The notes beneath the pieces are model-generated. The model worked only from the letters and a program-made list of their open reading frames with translations, was not told the origin of the DNA and did not search any database. A stretch of DNA of 27,368 bases from a virus: IMG/VR virus record IMGVR_UViG_3300025671_000410, positions 1 through 27,368 of that record. One strand, given 5' to 3'. This document shows positions 1,620-13,118 of the stretch, in pieces. Positions within the stretch are counted from its first letter, which is position 1. Each line of letters begins with the position of its first letter. Position numbers and translations under genes: made by a program.

Positions 1620-1838
1620 CATTTCTGATTCAGGCTCGTCACAGCCAGGGTGGCCTTTCGGGGGATGCCTGGACGCTGATAAGCCGGTAGTGCAGCGCTA
1701 CGGAAAAACACCGGCAGCCCGCGCGCTCTGTTCACACCTGACTTCCAGAGTGGCGCGATACCAGATCAGCGAGATCGATGCATTGGGGTGTCGACGCTGG
1801 GAAGGTCTTTGGCTGGCAGCGTGGGAAGACACGCAATT
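1620..1838. other. Gene-free stretch before the tRNA pair
   Basis: I see no gene here. Open frames crossing this stretch run on into the tRNA genes and lack convincing ribosome binding sites. No further T-arm-like sequence was found, so there is no evidence for a third intact tRNA. Confidence 0.5.
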
Positions 1839-1908
1839 GCGGGTAGCGCAGGTCGCTAGACAGCCTTCCAAGCTTTCGATCAGGGTTCGATTCCCTGTAT
1901 CCGCTCCA
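1839..1908 (+). tRNA. tRNA-Gly (anticodon TCC) with reduced D arm
   Basis: The acceptor stem GCGGGTA / TATCCGC pairs over seven positions with one G-T wobble and is followed by T and an encoded CCA. The T arm is a perfect CAGGG / CCCTG stem with loop TTCGATT. The anticodon loop CTTCCAA places TCC at 1867-1869, as in glycine tRNAs reading GGA, but the anticodon stem has one mismatch. The region between acceptor and anticodon stem is about five bases short, so only a three-pair D stem (GCG/CGC) with a very small loop can form. The gene is 70 bases including CCA. It may be a functional but degenerate phage tRNA or a decaying copy. Confidence 0.7.
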
Positions 1909-1912
1909 AATC

Positions 1913-1988
1913 TGGCCCGAAGCATTGACGGTTGATGCGCCCGGCTCATAACCGGGGGAAGAGGGTTCAAGCCCCTACGGGCCGACCA
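1913..1988 (+). tRNA. tRNA with CAT anticodon (Met or lysidine-type Ile)
   Basis: It folds as a full cloverleaf. The acceptor TGGCCCG / CGGGCCG has seven pairs including one wobble, followed by A and an encoded CCA. The D stem is GCAT / ATGC with a nine-base loop. The anticodon stem is CCCGG / CCGGG with loop CTCATAA, and CAT lies at 1947-1949. The variable loop is four bases. The T stem is GAGGG / CCCTA with one outer mismatch and loop TTCAAGC. It begins four bases after the CCA of the glycine tRNA, so the two are probably co-transcribed. The CAT anticodon alone does not separate elongator Met from tRNA-Ile2. Confidence 0.85.
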
Positions 1989-5936: not shown

Positions 5937-7351
5937 GCAACGACGTCTCCTTCAAGCGGGCGGATTACATCGAAGCGCTGGACCGCTGGGCGACCGTTCG
6001 CGACGTCTGCGCCGGGCAGCACCGGGTTGTCGATCGGCTCCCATACATCAACGCGCACGACAAGTCGCCAGAGAACGAAGACCGGAACCGGGCTTACCGC
6101 GAGCGGGCGGTGTTCAAGAACGCCACCGGGCACACCCGTAACGGGTTGCTTGGCCTGGCCTTCCATAAAGACCCGACACTCACGGTGTCGAAGAAGCTTG
6201 AGTACCTGCAGGACAATGCCAACGGTTCCGGCGTCAGCGTCTACCAGCATTCCCAGGGCACGCTTGAAAAGGTGCTTGAGGCCGGTCGGCATGGGCTGTA
6301 CGTCGACTATCACCAGGACGACAGCATTGGTGGGCACTCGGTGATCCTGTCCTACTGCGCTGAGGACATCATCAACTGGCGCACCGGGATGGTGAACGGG
6401 CACAGCGTGCTGACGCTGGTGGTGTTGCGTGAGTCGCCTGAGATTCCCGACGGCTTCGGTTTCAAGACGGTCGAGCAGTACCGGGAACTGGCGCTGGAGG
6501 ACGATGGTTTCGTTTGCCGGGTCTGGCGCAGGTCCGGGCCGAAAGGTGGCGGGCCGCTGGCGGTCACCGAAGAATTCAGGCCTGAAGGTGTCACTGGGCG
6601 TTTCAAAGAGATCCCGTTCACCTTTGTCGGCGCGCAGAACAATGACCCCAGCATCGACGAATCACCCCTGTACGACATCGCCATGATCAACCTGGGCCAT
6701 TACCGGAACAGCGCCGACTATGAGGACAGCGTTTTCTGGTGTGGACAGGCCCAGCCGTGGATCAGTGGCTTGGATGAGCAGTGGCGCGACTGGATGGAGA
6801 AGAACGGCGTCTATGTCGGCTCCAGGGCGCCAATGATGCTGCCGGTCGGTGGCCAGTTCGGCTACGCGCAGCCATTGCCCAACACACTAGTCAAAGAGGC
6901 CATGGCCGACAAGAACCAGATGATGATCGAGCTGGGCGCGCGGATGGTGGTGGCGTCAATTGCCACCAAGACCGCTACGGAGTCTCGTGGTGATCAGTCG
7001 GCCTCCACTTCGGTGCTGGCCGGCTGCGTGGCAAACGTAAGCGAGGCTTACACCCGGGCAATCATGTGGTGTTGTGCCTACATGGGCATCGCTGACAAGA
7101 AGGTTGCCTACCAGGTGAATCAGGAGTTCGTCGAGCTGACGGCTGATCCGCAGATGATCACCGCCTTGGTCGGCTTGTGGCAGAACGGCGGATTCGCGAA
7201 GGCTGACCTTCGGGCCTACCTGCGTAAGTTGGGCCTGATCGCGCCAGAGCGCACTGACCTGCAGATCGACGGCGAATTGCAGGAGCAGGGCGACGGCCTG
7301 GGTCTGGACAACGAGGACACACCAAATGGCGGCAAACCAAGCAATCCATGA
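5933..7351 (+). CDS. Portal protein (DUF4055 family)
   Basis: The 472-residue product matches the length and order expected of a DUF4055 portal, the ring at the head vertex through which DNA passes. Supporting features are its place directly after the large terminase with an ATGA overlap, the aromatic-rich central segment, and the helical C-terminal third ending in an acidic, glycine-rich tail. The family call is by overall resemblance, as there is no single catalytic motif. Its last 26 bases overlap the minor head protein gene. Confidence 0.88.
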   Translation: MSNDVSFKRADYIEALDRWATVRDVCAGQHRVVDRLPYINAHDKSPENEDRNRAYRERAVFKNATGHTRNGLLGLAFHKDPTLTVSKKLEYLQDNANGSGVSVYQHSQGTLEKVLEAGRHGLYVDYHQDDSIGGHSVILSYCAEDIINWRTGMVNGHSVLTLVVLRESPEIPDGFGFKTVEQYRELALEDDGFVCRVWRRSGPKGGGPLAVTEEFRPEGVTGRFKEIPFTFVGAQNNDPSIDESPLYDIAMINLGHYRNSADYEDSVFWCGQAQPWISGLDEQWRDWMEKNGVYVGSRAPMMLPVGGQFGYAQPLPNTLVKEAMADKNQMMIELGARMVVASIATKTATESRGDQSASTSVLAGCVANVSEAYTRAIMWCCAYMGIADKKVAYQVNQEFVELTADPQMITALVGLWQNGGFAKADLRAYLRKLGLIAPERTDLQIDGELQEQGDGLGLDNEDTPNGGKPSNP

Positions 7352-8414
7352 CGCCACCATCCGGCACGCCGTTTTCCTCGAAAAGCTGAAGGCGGGGGAG
7401 GTGGGCAAGTTTGCCCCCTTCCTCAAGGAGATCGATCGCTCGATCCGCGACCGGCTGACCCAGTCGGACCTGACCGAGTACAACGTCAAGCGCCTGGAAG
7501 CGCTGCTGAAGGAGGTCGACAGCCTGTTGCTGGGCATCTTCGACCGCTACAGCGCGCAACTGAACCTCGACTTGGTGGATATCGCCAACTATGAGGCCGA
7601 GTTCGAGGCGACCAGTCTTGTCAGGTCAGCACCGGTCGGCGTATCGCTCGACGTGGTTGCGCCGACAGCCGCAGCAATCCGCACCGCAGTGCTGACAAAC
7701 CCGCTCAGCGTGCGCGGCACCGGCGGCGGTAAGCTGTTGAAGGCCTTCATCAAGGGTTGGACCGGCGCCGAGCGAGAGCGTGTCACCGGCACTATTCGGC
7801 AGGGCTACTTCGAAGGGCAGACGAACTTCCAGATCATCCGCAACATTCGCGGTACCAAGGCTGCCGGGTACAAAGACGGCATCCTGGCGACCACCAACCG
7901 CAATGCCGCCACGGTCGTACATACCGCGATTCAGCATGTGTCGTCTCAGGCGCGCATGGAGGTGGCCAAGGCCAACACTGACATCGTGGAAGAAATCCAG
8001 ATGGTGGCCACGCTGGACAGCAAAACCAGTCAGCTTTGCCGCTCTATGGACAAGCGCAAGTTTCCGGTGGATTCCGGCCCAAGGCCGCCATTCCACCCGA
8101 ACTGCCGCACTACCTTCATTCTCCTGACCAAGCTCAGCGCGATGTTTGCCAAAGGTGCTACCCGGGCTTCGGTGGGTGCCAATGGCGGACAGCAGGTCAG
8201 TGCCGACCTCGACTATTACCACTGGCTTCAGCAGCAGCCAGCATCGTTTCAGGACGTGGCCATCGGCCCGGTCCGGGCCAAGCTGTTCCGTGAGGGCGGG
8301 CTGACAGTCGAGCGCTTCGCCGAGCTGCAGCTTGATCGCAACTTCGCACCGCTGACGTTGGTTCAGATGAAGAACTTAGAACCACTGGCTTTTGAGAGAG
8401 CAGGCATTTTATAG
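7326..8414 (+). CDS. Minor head protein (SPP1 gp7 / Mu gpF-like)
   Basis: The 362-residue protein carries the typical C-terminal head-morphogenesis signature: a D-x-K-T-S-x-x-C segment (C238) followed about 20 residues later by P-x-H-P-N-C-R (C260). In SPP1 and Mu relatives these proteins bind the portal and enter the procapsid in a few copies. The start overlaps the end of the portal gene, so translation is coupled. The N-terminal 150 residues are helical and less conserved. A further 90 residues after the signature are not assigned. Confidence 0.88.
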   Translation: MAANQAIHDATIRHAVFLEKLKAGEVGKFAPFLKEIDRSIRDRLTQSDLTEYNVKRLEALLKEVDSLLLGIFDRYSAQLNLDLVDIANYEAEFEATSLVRSAPVGVSLDVVAPTAAAIRTAVLTNPLSVRGTGGGKLLKAFIKGWTGAERERVTGTIRQGYFEGQTNFQIIRNIRGTKAAGYKDGILATTNRNAATVVHTAIQHVSSQARMEVAKANTDIVEEIQMVATLDSKTSQLCRSMDKRKFPVDSGPRPPFHPNCRTTFILLTKLSAMFAKGATRASVGANGGQQVSADLDYYHWLQQQPASFQDVAIGPVRAKLFREGGLTVERFAELQLDRNFAPLTLVQMKNLEPLAFERAGIL

Positions 8415-8428
8415 CCTGTTGGCGTGGC

Positions 8429-9004
8429 TCACGGAGCTCTCAAGCTAACCACTGTAAATGGATTGCCGGATGGGTCCTTTCCTTGGGAAACGATCTCATG
8501 TTGCTTTATGGACTTGATTTTGTACTCGTCCGAACTGCCAGGAACATATTGCTTGTTCATGTCAGGGAGTGAAATTCCGCTTAGTTTCTCCAGAAGTGGA
8601 ATCGGCATTTCTACATCGCCACTTTTAAAGGTCGATGGTTCGGTATGAAAGCCTGTCAGCGTAAACGTTAAGAATTCGTCGTCAGCCGTCCAAACACCTG
8701 AGCCTTTTGCGAGAACTACTGCAGAAAACGGCTTGTCGGCAGCGCTGCCTGAGAACGTGAGGGTTCCGTTCACGTTGTATCGTCCGTTACGGAAATATTC
8801 AGTGATGCCGTTGAAGGCGATAGTCCCACCCGGAACTGGGTGTTGGTAGTTGCTTTCCCAGCGCCCGAGAAAGGCTGCGTTGTGCTTTGGACCGGATTCA
8901 TAAAACGGGCCGTATATCGTCACAAGGCCCGCGAGAAGAGCAATGACTCCCGCTGCAATGACATAGCCTTTACGAGTGAAGTGTTTGATCGTTTCTAGGT
9001 TCAT
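8429..9004 (-). CDS. Membrane-anchored accessory protein, minus strand
   Basis: The 191-residue product has a single N-terminal hydrophobic segment (about residues 14-31) and then a soluble domain rich in short beta-strand-like stretches, suggesting a small exported barrel or sandwich anchored in the inner membrane. I do not recognise the family. It is read against the head operon, between the minor head protein and the scaffold gene. The ribosome binding site is weak. A perfect inverted repeat (9013-9028) sits just ahead of its start codon and may control it. Location and orientation suggest an accessory gene expressed in the lysogen. Confidence 0.5.
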   Translation of the reverse strand: MNLETIKHFTRKGYVIAAGVIALLAGLVTIYGPFYESGPKHNAAFLGRWESNYQHPVPGGTIAFNGITEYFRNGRYNVNGTLTFSGSAADKPFSAVVLAKGSGVWTADDEFLTFTLTGFHTEPSTFKSGDVEMPIPLLEKLSGISLPDMNKQYVPGSSDEYKIKSIKQHEIVSQGKDPSGNPFTVVSLRAP

Positions 9005-9098: not shown

Positions 9099-9122
9099 CC
9101 TCGCATTTGCGGGGCTTTTTTT
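9099..9122 (+). terminator. Terminator directly upstream of the scaffold gene
   Basis: CCTCGC (9099-9104) pairs with GCGGGG (9109-9114) with one T-G wobble around loop ATTT. A C and seven T residues follow. The scaffold start codon is 42 bases downstream, so late transcription must pass through this hairpin or start after it. Confidence 0.7.
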
Positions 9123-9163
9123 GCCTGCAAAGCGGGCAACTCATACCCAAGGGGTGCATCAAC

Positions 9164-9892
9164 GTGGCAGAAGAAAACGAAATCGACCTGGAAAACCCGG
9201 CAATCAAGGCCGCTATCGCGACTGCCGTTGAAGCATCCGTTTCGGGTTTGAAAACCAAGAACTCGGAACTGCTGGGCAAGCTGAAGGAAACCTCCGGCAA
9301 GTTGACCCAGTTCGAAACCCAATTTGAAGGCATCGACATCGACGCCGTCAAAGGACTGCTCAGTCGAGCGGGCCAGGACGAAGAAACCAAGTTGCTAACT
9401 GAGGGCAAGGTTGACGAAGTGTTCAACAAGCGCACCGAGCGCCTGCGTGGCGAGCACGACAAGCAACTGAAGGCGCTCGCCGGCCGCGCCGAGAAGGCTG
9501 AAGCCTTCGCCGCCAAGTTCCAGGGCAAAGTCTTGGGCGACTCGGTGCGCGGCGCTGCACTGAAAGCCGGCGCACTGCCGGAAGCAACCGACGACATCAT
9601 CCTGCGCGCCAAAGGCGTGTTCTCTCTAAACGAAGAGGGCGAAGCGGTCGCTGTCGATGAGCATGGCCAGACCATCCTCGGCAAAGACGGCAAGACCCCT
9701 CTGACTCCGCTCGAATGGGCCGAGTCTCTGCGCGAAAGCGCGCCCCACCTGTGGCCAAGGGCCTCAGGGACACAAGCCCCGGGCGGGGGCGGCGGCCAGG
9801 CTGCATTCAAGCGCTCCGAAATGACCTCCGAGCAAAAGCGCGAATACCAGCGCAAGCACGGCCAAACCGCATATCTGCAATTGCCCAAGTAA
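9164..9892 (+). CDS. Capsid scaffolding protein
   Basis: The 242-residue protein is highly charged and helical, with alternating acidic and lysine-rich stretches over residues 30-160 and a glycine-rich hinge before a basic tail. This is typical of phage scaffolds that line the procapsid and leave before DNA entry. It lies directly ahead of the major capsid gene, as scaffolds do. A GTG start at 9164 is chosen because AAGGGG lies about nine bases upstream; an open frame extends back to 9107 but would cross the terminator. No protease motif is visible. Confidence 0.82.
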   Translation: MAEENEIDLENPAIKAAIATAVEASVSGLKTKNSELLGKLKETSGKLTQFETQFEGIDIDAVKGLLSRAGQDEETKLLTEGKVDEVFNKRTERLRGEHDKQLKALAGRAEKAEAFAAKFQGKVLGDSVRGAALKAGALPEATDDIILRAKGVFSLNEEGEAVAVDEHGQTILGKDGKTPLTPLEWAESLRESAPHLWPRASGTQAPGGGGGQAAFKRSEMTSEQKREYQRKHGQTAYLQLPK

Positions 9893-9904
9893 GGGGAAAT
9901 ACTC

Positions 9905-10867
9905 ATGGCGACAACCGTCAATAGCGACCTGATCATCTACAACGATGAGGCGCAAACTGCATACCTGGAGCGCGTTCAGGACAACCTGGACGTGTTCAAC
10001 GCGTCTTCCAATGGCGCGATCGTCCTCGATAACGAGCTGATCGAAGGCGACTTCCGCAAGCGCGCTTTCTACAAGATTGGCGGCTCGCTGGAACACCGCG
10101 ACGTCAACTCCACCGGGAAGGTGACCGCCAAAAAGATCGGCGCCGGTGAGGCCGTCGGTGTCAAGGCGCCGTGGAAATACGGCCCGTACCAGACCACCGA
10201 AGAGGCGTTCAAGCGTCGCGGCCGCCCGGTTGATGAGTTCTCCCAGATCATCGGTGCCGACGTTGCCGACGCGACCTTGGAAGGCTTCATCCAGTACGCC
10301 ACCGCCGCGTTGCGCGCCGCCATCGGCTCCAACGCCGGCATGGTTGTCTCGGCGAACATCGAAACCGACGGCAAGAAGACGCTGACCCGCGGCATGCGCA
10401 AATTCGGCGACAAGTTCGGTCGCATTGCGTTGTGGGTTATGCACTCCAGTGCCTACTTCGACATCGTCGACGAGGCCATCACCAACAAAATCTACGAAGA
10501 AGCCGGTGTCGTTATCTATGGTGGCCTGCCTGGCACCCTGGGCAAGCCCGTGCTGGTGACTGATACCGCGCCATCTGACGTGATCTTCGGCCTGCTGCCG
10601 AACGCCGTGGTGATCACCGAGTCCCAAGCCCCCGGCTTCCGTTCGTACAATGTGGACGACGAGGAAAACCTCGGCATCGGCTACCGCGCCGAGGGCACCG
10701 TCAACATTGACGTCCTGGGTTATAGCTGGAAGGAAACTGCCGGCGGCGCGAACCCAACCCTGGCGGCTGTCGGTTCGGCGGCCAACTGGGTCAAGCATGC
10801 CGACAGCAACAAGGTCACCGCCGGCGTGATGATCACCCTCACCACTACGCCACCAGCCGGCGGCTGA
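9905..10867 (+). CDS. Major capsid protein
   Basis: The 320-residue product lies immediately after the scaffold, with a GGGG ribosome binding site before the ATG. Its composition (many Ala, Gly, Val and Asp with few Cys) and its layout resemble the phage capsid family annotated as gp13-like, expected to adopt the HK97 fold. The family name is given from memory of general resemblance. It should be the most abundant late product and builds the icosahedral shell. Confidence 0.85.
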   Translation: MATTVNSDLIIYNDEAQTAYLERVQDNLDVFNASSNGAIVLDNELIEGDFRKRAFYKIGGSLEHRDVNSTGKVTAKKIGAGEAVGVKAPWKYGPYQTTEEAFKRRGRPVDEFSQIIGADVADATLEGFIQYATAALRAAIGSNAGMVVSANIETDGKKTLTRGMRKFGDKFGRIALWVMHSSAYFDIVDEAITNKIYEEAGVVIYGGLPGTLGKPVLVTDTAPSDVIFGLLPNAVVITESQAPGFRSYNVDDEENLGIGYRAEGTVNIDVLGYSWKETAGGANPTLAAVGSAANWVKHADSNKVTAGVMITLTTTPPAGG

Positions 10868-10913
10868 TATTCACCCCAGGAAACGGTCGGCAACGGCCGC
10901 TACGGAGATTCCC

Positions 10914-11504
10914 ATGGAACTGATTTACACGAACCAGCTTGAGGGCTTTGATCCGGAGAAGCACTACCGGACTGCGAGTCTATTTCGCGGCATTGAACGC
11001 GACGCGACGGCGGTGGTGGTCGTTGGCGAACATCCAGATATCGTCGCTGCCTATGAGGCTGCAGGCGTTGACGTGTCGGTCGTCGAGACTCCAGCACCTT
11101 CCGCAGTCAGCGTGCCAGCGGGACTACCCGATGCGCTGGCTGAGGAAATTGCCAGGTTGCGGACTGAAAATGGCGCGCTCATTCTGCTGGTTGATGGCCT
11201 GGAAGCTGGCGAAATTCAGCGACCCGAAGTTGGTGAAATCGCGTTGCGATTGTTTGGCGTGCTGGGCACCATCCACACCTCGGTTGGAGAGCTGACTACT
11301 GAGCGTGACGGCCTGCTCGTGACCGTCGACACACTGCGCGGCGAGGTTGAAGCGCTGAAGAAGGCCGCCATCACGCCGCCGGCTGATGAGGCTGGAGAAA
11401 TCGCGGCGCTGAAAGCAAAGCTCGATGACGCGAAGGTGCCGTACCGGGCCAACGCCTCGAAGGAATCCTTGGAAAAGCTCGTAGCTGATCTGCCCAATGC
11501 CTGA
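10914..11504 (+). CDS. Head-region protein with C-terminal HeH/SAP-like motif
   Basis: This 196-residue protein has a compact N-terminal segment (about residues 1-55), a Pro/Ala-rich linker, and a helical, acidic middle. It ends in a roughly 35-residue motif resembling HeH or SAP folds (L-K-A-K-L-D-x-A-x-V-P-Y, then N-A-S-K-E-x-L-E-K-L). Such motifs often occur in small phage proteins between capsid and connector genes and can bind nucleic acid. CGGAGA lies upstream of the ATG. The exact role is unknown; head decoration or head completion is possible. Confidence 0.65.
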   Translation: MELIYTNQLEGFDPEKHYRTASLFRGIERDATAVVVVGEHPDIVAAYEAAGVDVSVVETPAPSAVSVPAGLPDALAEEIARLRTENGALILLVDGLEAGEIQRPEVGEIALRLFGVLGTIHTSVGELTTERDGLLVTVDTLRGEVEALKKAAITPPADEAGEIAALKAKLDDAKVPYRANASKESLEKLVADLPNA

Positions 11505-11562
11505 TAATGCTGGCTGCCAGTGACGCGGCCGCCAATCTCAAACCATTCCAGCGAGTTGACGC

Positions 11563-12066
11563 ATGACACTCATCATCGAGGACGGCACCGGCAAGCCTGA
11601 CGCCGAAAGCTACGCGAGCGCTGAGGACTTGGCCCTGTATGCCGTGAAATTCGGCACAGTCATCCCCGCAGGCGTTCCCGAGCAGGAAGCATTGCTGCGC
11701 CGGGCCGCCTTGGCGATGGATGGCAAGACCTGGAAAGGCCGCAAGATGAGCAGCGAGCAGGCCTTGTCCTAGCCGCGCCGGGAAGTGCTGCTGGATCAGG
11801 AGATCAAGCCGAACAACTACCTGCCGGCGCGCATCCAGTACGGCCAGATGGCCCTGGCCGCCGAGATTCATCAGGACGATATCGACCCGGTGGAGAAGCG
11901 CAAGGGCGCGGTAACTCTGGAGCGTGTCGAGGGCGCGGTAACTCGCGAGTACGCGACTATTCCGAACACTAGCGGCCGACTGTTGCCGGCGGCGCCTGAT
12001 CGACCGAGCGCTACGCAGTTTGCCGATTACCTACAAAAGCGCGGGCTGTTCGCAGTGCGCGCGTAA
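11563..12066 (+). pseudogene. Head-tail connector (DnaT-like) interrupted by an in-frame TAG
   Basis: One continuous frame encodes a protein of about 167 residues resembling the small DnaT-like head-tail connector annotated in many phages of this type. It is broken by TAG at 11770-11772, codon 70. Homologous-looking sequence continues in the same frame to 12066 with no frameshift. In relatives as I recall them, the motif reads A-L-x-W-P-R at this point, so a TGG-to-TAG transition is the simplest origin. A GTG at 11785 with GGGAA just ahead could restart translation, giving two fragments. Unless suppressed, read through or complemented, loss of this protein should block head-tail joining. Confidence 0.8.
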
Positions 12067-12082: not shown

Positions 12083-12101
12083 TCATTAAGTGGAGGTAAT
12101 T

Positions 12102-12308
12102 ATGACGACGATGCTTTTTGGCAATGACACGGGTACTTGGGATGAGTTTGCAGCTTCTGCACTCAATGCTCTGATCGTTAAGGGGGACTATTCATTGGCG
12201 CAAGCCGCAGCGAAGGCCGCCGAGGCGGCTGACCAGTTGCTGCTTGAGCGTAAAGCACGAACTGATGCCGCCAATGAGTACCAGTTCGGTAAGTCTGCGT
12301 CACGCTAG
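12102..12308 (+). CDS. Small hypothetical protein
   Basis: This 68-residue, mostly helical, alanine-rich protein has no signal or membrane segment, and I do not recognise it. The start at 12102 follows a good GGAGG ribosome binding site; an in-frame ATG at 12090 would include that site. It lies between the broken connector and the head-closure gene, and copy A of the recurrent 13-base element sits 19 bases upstream. That suggests an inserted accessory gene, though a small structural role cannot be excluded. Confidence 0.6.
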   Translation: MTTMLFGNDTGTWDEFAASALNALIVKGDYSLAQAAAKAAEAADQLLLERKARTDAANEYQFGKSASR

Positions 12309-12331: not shown

Positions 12332-12700
12332 ATGGCCTTTTACGATGAAATGGCCGTGATGGCTCTGGAGATGATCACAGAGTTCGGCCAGCCCGTGACC
12401 ATCCGCAAGACGGTGCCGGGCGAGTACGACCCTGAGACGGGCGGCGAAGCGCCGGGCGCAACCGTCGAGCAAACAGCCCAAGGCATCCTGCTCGACTTCA
12501 CCGGCCAAGAATTCCAGAACAACAGCCTGATCAAACAGGGCGACAAGAAGCTCAAGATCGCCGCGCAGGGTTTGGCCTGGGTCCCCGGCCTACTAGACAA
12601 AGTTGTGGCCCAGGGCCGCACCTGGTCAATCGTTCCTCCACTGAAAGAGGTCAATCCTGCCGGCACTCCGATCCTGTATGAACTGCAGGTGCGGGCATGA
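12332..12700 (+). CDS. Head-closure / head-tail joining protein
   Basis: The 122-residue product is beta-rich in its C-terminal half and lies between the connector and neck genes. The placement and the phrase G-x-x-W-x-I-V-P-P-L-K-E suit small head-closure proteins of the SPP1 gp16 type, which plug the portal after packaging. GGAG precedes the ATG. The call is from order, size and general resemblance. Confidence 0.65.
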   Translation: MAFYDEMAVMALEMITEFGQPVTIRKTVPGEYDPETGGEAPGATVEQTAQGILLDFTGQEFQNNSLIKQGDKKLKIAAQGLAWVPGLLDKVVAQGRTWSIVPPLKEVNPAGTPILYELQVRA

Positions 12701-12806: not shown

Positions 12807-13118
12807 ATGGATATGCGCGGCATTATTACTCTGGTTAGCATGGCTGCTTTCTTCTCAACTACAGCCTTTGCGGACACTGATGTAAAGAAAGAGATCATTG
12901 ATCGATGCAAGGTTCAGATGGGGAGTTACGGATCAGCAATGGTGAAGGCTTGCGTTGATCAGGATCTAAGCGCGGTAGCTGAAATCAAGCAAATTCCAGA
13001 CGAGTACAAGAAAACTGTGGCGCGTTGCATGAAGCAAATGCGCCAATACGGATTTGCCATGGTCAAAGCCTGTGCTGATCAGGATATCGAGGCCGACAAG
13101 GCACTTAAGGAGTACTGA
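12807..13118 (+). CDS. Small exported protein with a duplicated Cys-pair motif
   Basis: The 103-residue product has a cleavable signal peptide (cleavage likely after A-F-A near residue 22). Two copies of one motif follow, 40 residues apart: R-C-x2-Q-M-x2-Y-G-x-A-M-V-K-A-C-x-D-Q-D at residues 33-53 and 73-93, identical at 15 of 21 positions. Each copy holds two cysteines 15 apart, suited to periplasmic disulfides. Similar small exported proteins occur in Pseudomonas as far as I recall. It splits the head-closure and neck genes, has copy B of the shared element upstream and a terminator downstream, and so forms a complete inserted unit. A role for the lysogen is likely, but its nature is unknown. 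Confidence 0.75.
   Translation: MDMRGIITLVSMAAFFSTTAFADTDVKKEIIDRCKVQMGSYGSAMVKACVDQDLSAVAEIKQIPDEYKKTVARCMKQMRQYGFAMVKACADQDIEADKALKEY

Follow-up and report, generated by a model that had tools for sequence, protein, structure and literature searches.

In phage lambda, 12 copies of gpW form an adaptor ring below the portal, which serves as the platform for assembly of the stopper ring and the tail (PMC10721106). Among damaged prophages, ST64B of Salmonella is a tested case, having been made defective by one small tail-gene lesion that leaves two fragments (PMC5322425). In addition, the Pseudomonas phage phiAH14a encodes an annotated head-tail connector protein, AH14a_p68 (KU708004.1), as an uninterrupted frame of 167 residues with TGG at codon 70, flanked by the capsid region on one side and the tail attachment gene on the other. 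Here, we describe a 27,368-nucleotide stretch of viral DNA (IMG/VR record IMGVR_UViG_3300025671_000410, positions 1 to 27,368; referred to below as the window), in which the gene for a 93% identical protein lies in the same place and is interrupted by a TAG. The window adaptor would be expected to play the same role as gpW, forming a ring under the portal; gpW has 68 residues, whereas the window family has 167, and the two are compared by role, not homology. What the case shares with ST64B is a lone, minor lesion that breaks a single virion gene into two short frames within a prophage of full length. However, the ST64B lesion is a frameshift in a tail gene and its effect on viability was tested, while the one described here is a putative nonsense change in a neck adaptor.

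Identity of the interrupted gene

The frame at positions 11563 to 12066 (plus strand) opens with ATG at 11563, closes with TAA at 12064 to 12066, and contains a single internal stop, the TAG at 11770 to 11772 (codon 70). When X is put at codon 70, the entire frame yields matches to PF20557 (E = 1.2e-35; 123.3 bits against a curated cut-off of 27; model positions 1 to 138 of 168) and to phrog_477, "head-tail adaptor Ad1" (E = 9e-41), and the two halves, each searched alone, match consecutive stretches of the same phrog_477 model (7 to 77 and 87 to 171). With scores above cut-off over most of the model and matches that span the stop, the frame belongs to this family, as proposed in a first-pass annotation that had read it as one connector gene save for the TAG. 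The Pfam name of PF20557, "DnaT-like ssDNA binding protein" (DnaT_2), is only a label. An adaptor role is instead supported by the annotation of the phiAH14a protein and by gene order: the frame lies between the intact major capsid protein gene (9905 to 10867, plus strand) upstream and the next neck gene downstream, encoding the head closure protein Hc1 (phrog_161; 12332 to 12700, plus strand; intact), followed by tail completion, and phiAH14a shows the same order. A sequence search found no relative of solved structure for the adaptor family, and a structure prediction made from close relatives was discarded as too poor (mean pLDDT, 39).

We also observe short additional frames interspersed with the head and neck genes, at 12090 to 12308, 12807 to 13118, and 8429 to 9004 (minus strand), which are not annotated there in phiAH14a. 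The extra frames of 103 and 191 residues have a hydrophobic start resembling a signal peptide or membrane anchor.

Codon 70 among relatives

Relatives of the adaptor gene were taken from phage records, IMG/VR, and GTDB genomes, and comprise many intact copies whose hosts are nearly all Pseudomonas, the remainder being contigs for which no host is named. In the first-round set, all 135 alignable copies have TGG at codon 70. In an enlarged set of 235 distinct copies, 227 carry TGG, seven carry a Phe codon (TTT or TTC), one is unalignable, and none carries a stop. The tryptophan lies within an S/A-W-P-R motif that is still recognizable in relatives at 31 to 35% identity. Thus, the earlier expectation that the family has tryptophan at this position is borne out by the alignment it had called for, with phenylalanine as the only substitute. 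A search of the 234 distinct alignable relatives revealed no adaptor gene split in two at codon 70, so the pairs of separate genes that would have counted against the first-pass reading are absent. The unalignable copy comes from a metagenome scaffold that lacks that part of the gene (MT836437.1; adaptor gene at 966 to 1334), where about 44 codons, the Trp motif among them, are missing in frame. Finally, a pattern scan of IMG/VR for a TAG-bearing form of the motif returned a single match, which was unrelated.

Age and nature of the stop

Across the 501 coding bases of the gene, the A at position 11771 is the only window base missing from all 176 distinct relatives of at least 80% identity, a comparison in which the searches may leave out records very near the window, so that there could be a sister copy, either carrying the stop or lacking it. 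The nearest record found (IMGVR_UViG_2740891816_000001) is 98.2% identical over 9102 to 12066, and among the 20 genes compared between the two, W70* is the sole stop, in line with the first-pass reading that the surrounding head and tail genes look intact; all other head and tail genes tested in the window are likewise intact. Downstream of W70*, the codons differ from this record almost solely synonymously. Judged from the one base private to the window, no change in the adaptor gene is newer than the stop, and no decay has followed it. One G-to-A change is sufficient to account for the TAG, as had been suggested, and the relatives are intact while the lesion is private to the window copy, which are the features of a pseudogene by recent nonsense mutation.

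The inner cytosine of CCWGG sites has a raised C-to-T rate in Escherichia coli and Salmonella (PMC9520237), and the codon 70 site reads CCTGG in 118 of the 135 first-round relatives and CCTAG in the window, a change expected from deamination within CCWGG. We rejected a Dcm-type hotspot as the source, since inner-cytosine changes in CCWGG are not raised between the window and its nearest relatives (for the nearest record, 0.013 against a background of 0.023), and the substitution at 11771 is therefore treated here as a plain transition.

Elsewhere in the element, the 1,623 bases at 212 to 1834 are 100% identical to the nearest record, whereas the late genes are mostly 95 to 98% identical, a contrast that suggests this block was exchanged recently.

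Broken virion genes in relatives

Over 17 structural genes, approximately 5 of the 1,413 ortholog copies judged in relatives carry an interior break, a count sorted by eye with natural C-terminal ends, too-early scaffold starts, and end effects set aside. Stops seemingly present in the relatives' tail terminator and scaffold genes were left uncounted, being located at natural ends or 5' of the likely real start. The remaining breaks affect the portal and scaffold genes of one prophage (L113, 4889 to 8527), the capsid protein gene of another (L130, 8377 to 9323), a tape measure gene (L089), and an adaptor gene (L100). The last of these, from Pseudomonas sivasensis P7, is of independent origin: an in-frame TGA (10073 to 10075) stands at codon 25 of the adaptor gene, and a small compensated indel may underlie the sequence around it. 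At this frequency, an element that is intact save for one disrupted virion gene is rare but ordinary, and part of the break rate may itself be assembly error.

Mutation, sequencing error, readthrough, or restart

The reading that we consider probable is a recent G-to-A change at 11771 that turned Trp70 into TAG, with the adaptor lost and the element probably defective for particles. Its main rival is an error of base calling or assembly, under which the true codon would be TGG and the gene intact. A single private base with no decay around it fits a very recent mutation and such an error equally well, and the error reading also gains from the window being a single virus record and from the absence of decay in the other tested structural genes. 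However, a young real mutation would look identical, G-to-A is a common real transition, and interior breaks of independent origin do occur, at a low rate, among the relatives. We infer that the base is real and regard an error as possible, yet distinctly less probable. The earlier proposal of an early, single inactivating mutation is thus supported by every test run, although a sequencing or assembly error still fits.

The same annotation had also entertained readthrough, in which a host suppressor tRNA or a leaky UAG would yield full-length adaptor and a conditional phage. The codons 3' of the stop still look constrained, and a suppressor could be encoded in the host genome. Yet this constraint predates the stop, because no other base in the gene is private to the window. 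Within the window, the two tRNA matches are a tRNA-Met (CAT; 1913 to 1988, plus strand) and a weak match with a short D arm and an aligned anticodon TCC (Gly; 1839 to 1905, plus strand); neither is a suppressor, and we find no tRNA with the CTA anticodon, as had been noted at the outset. TAG also serves as the normal terminator of the frames at 2494 to 2904 and 7326 to 8414. Programmed stop-codon readthrough was rejected, given that the stop is unconserved (TGG in 227, Phe in 7, and stop in none of the 234 alignable relatives). A reassigned-TAG phage code was likewise rejected, with one in-frame TAG among the 31 window frames checked, TAG in use as a true stop, and no CTA tRNA. Taken with these observations, readthrough of the stop is very unlikely, and we give still less credence to a TAG allele maintained in an amber-suppressor host, with particle assembly conditional on suppressor activity. 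Just 5' of the two tRNA matches, positions 1639 to 1719 (plus strand) show a strong Rfam match to Proteo-phage-1 RNA (RF03044; 86.9 bits).

Translation might otherwise restart at the GTG at 11785 to 11787 (plus strand), which is in frame 12 bases after the stop with GGGAA ahead of it, and the two fragments might assemble into a working adaptor. Both the GTG and the GGGAA are present as first described, but their use as a start does not hold up. The GGGAA belongs to the Arg and Glu codons just before the GTG, which it abuts (spacing of 0), whereas the purine stretches of most neighboring genes lie 4 to 10 bases, and those of the other neck genes 4 to 9 bases, 5' of the start, making this a poor start site. 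In addition, 126 of the 135 relatives have Val at codon 75, which argues that the GTG is coding sequence, and the two-fragment assembly once suggested finds no counterpart in a relative with two genes split at codon 70. We therefore assign restart a negligible probability.

Consequence for the phage

Under the favored reading of a real nonsense mutation, the conserved codon 70 of a Pseudomonas siphophage, probably a prophage, would have passed very recently from TGG to TAG by one G-to-A change. Ribosomes would halt after 69 of 167 residues, with an N-terminal fragment encoded by 11563 to 11769 (plus strand) as the expected product, and the adaptor ring under the portal would not be made. We infer loss of adaptor function by analogy with the ring role established in lambda: a 69-residue fragment that lacks the conserved second half would be expected to leave heads separate from tails, and, barring suppression or complementation, the element would probably be defective in making particles.

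The kind of event is ordinary prophage damage and involves no new genetic mechanism, nor does it open one. Its value is in part methodological, in that comparison with many relatives can date a lesion of this kind, the stop being the sole private base of its gene. Ultimately, the phage in this record can probably not assemble joined particles, a point that bears on its annotation and on whether it is called an intact phage.
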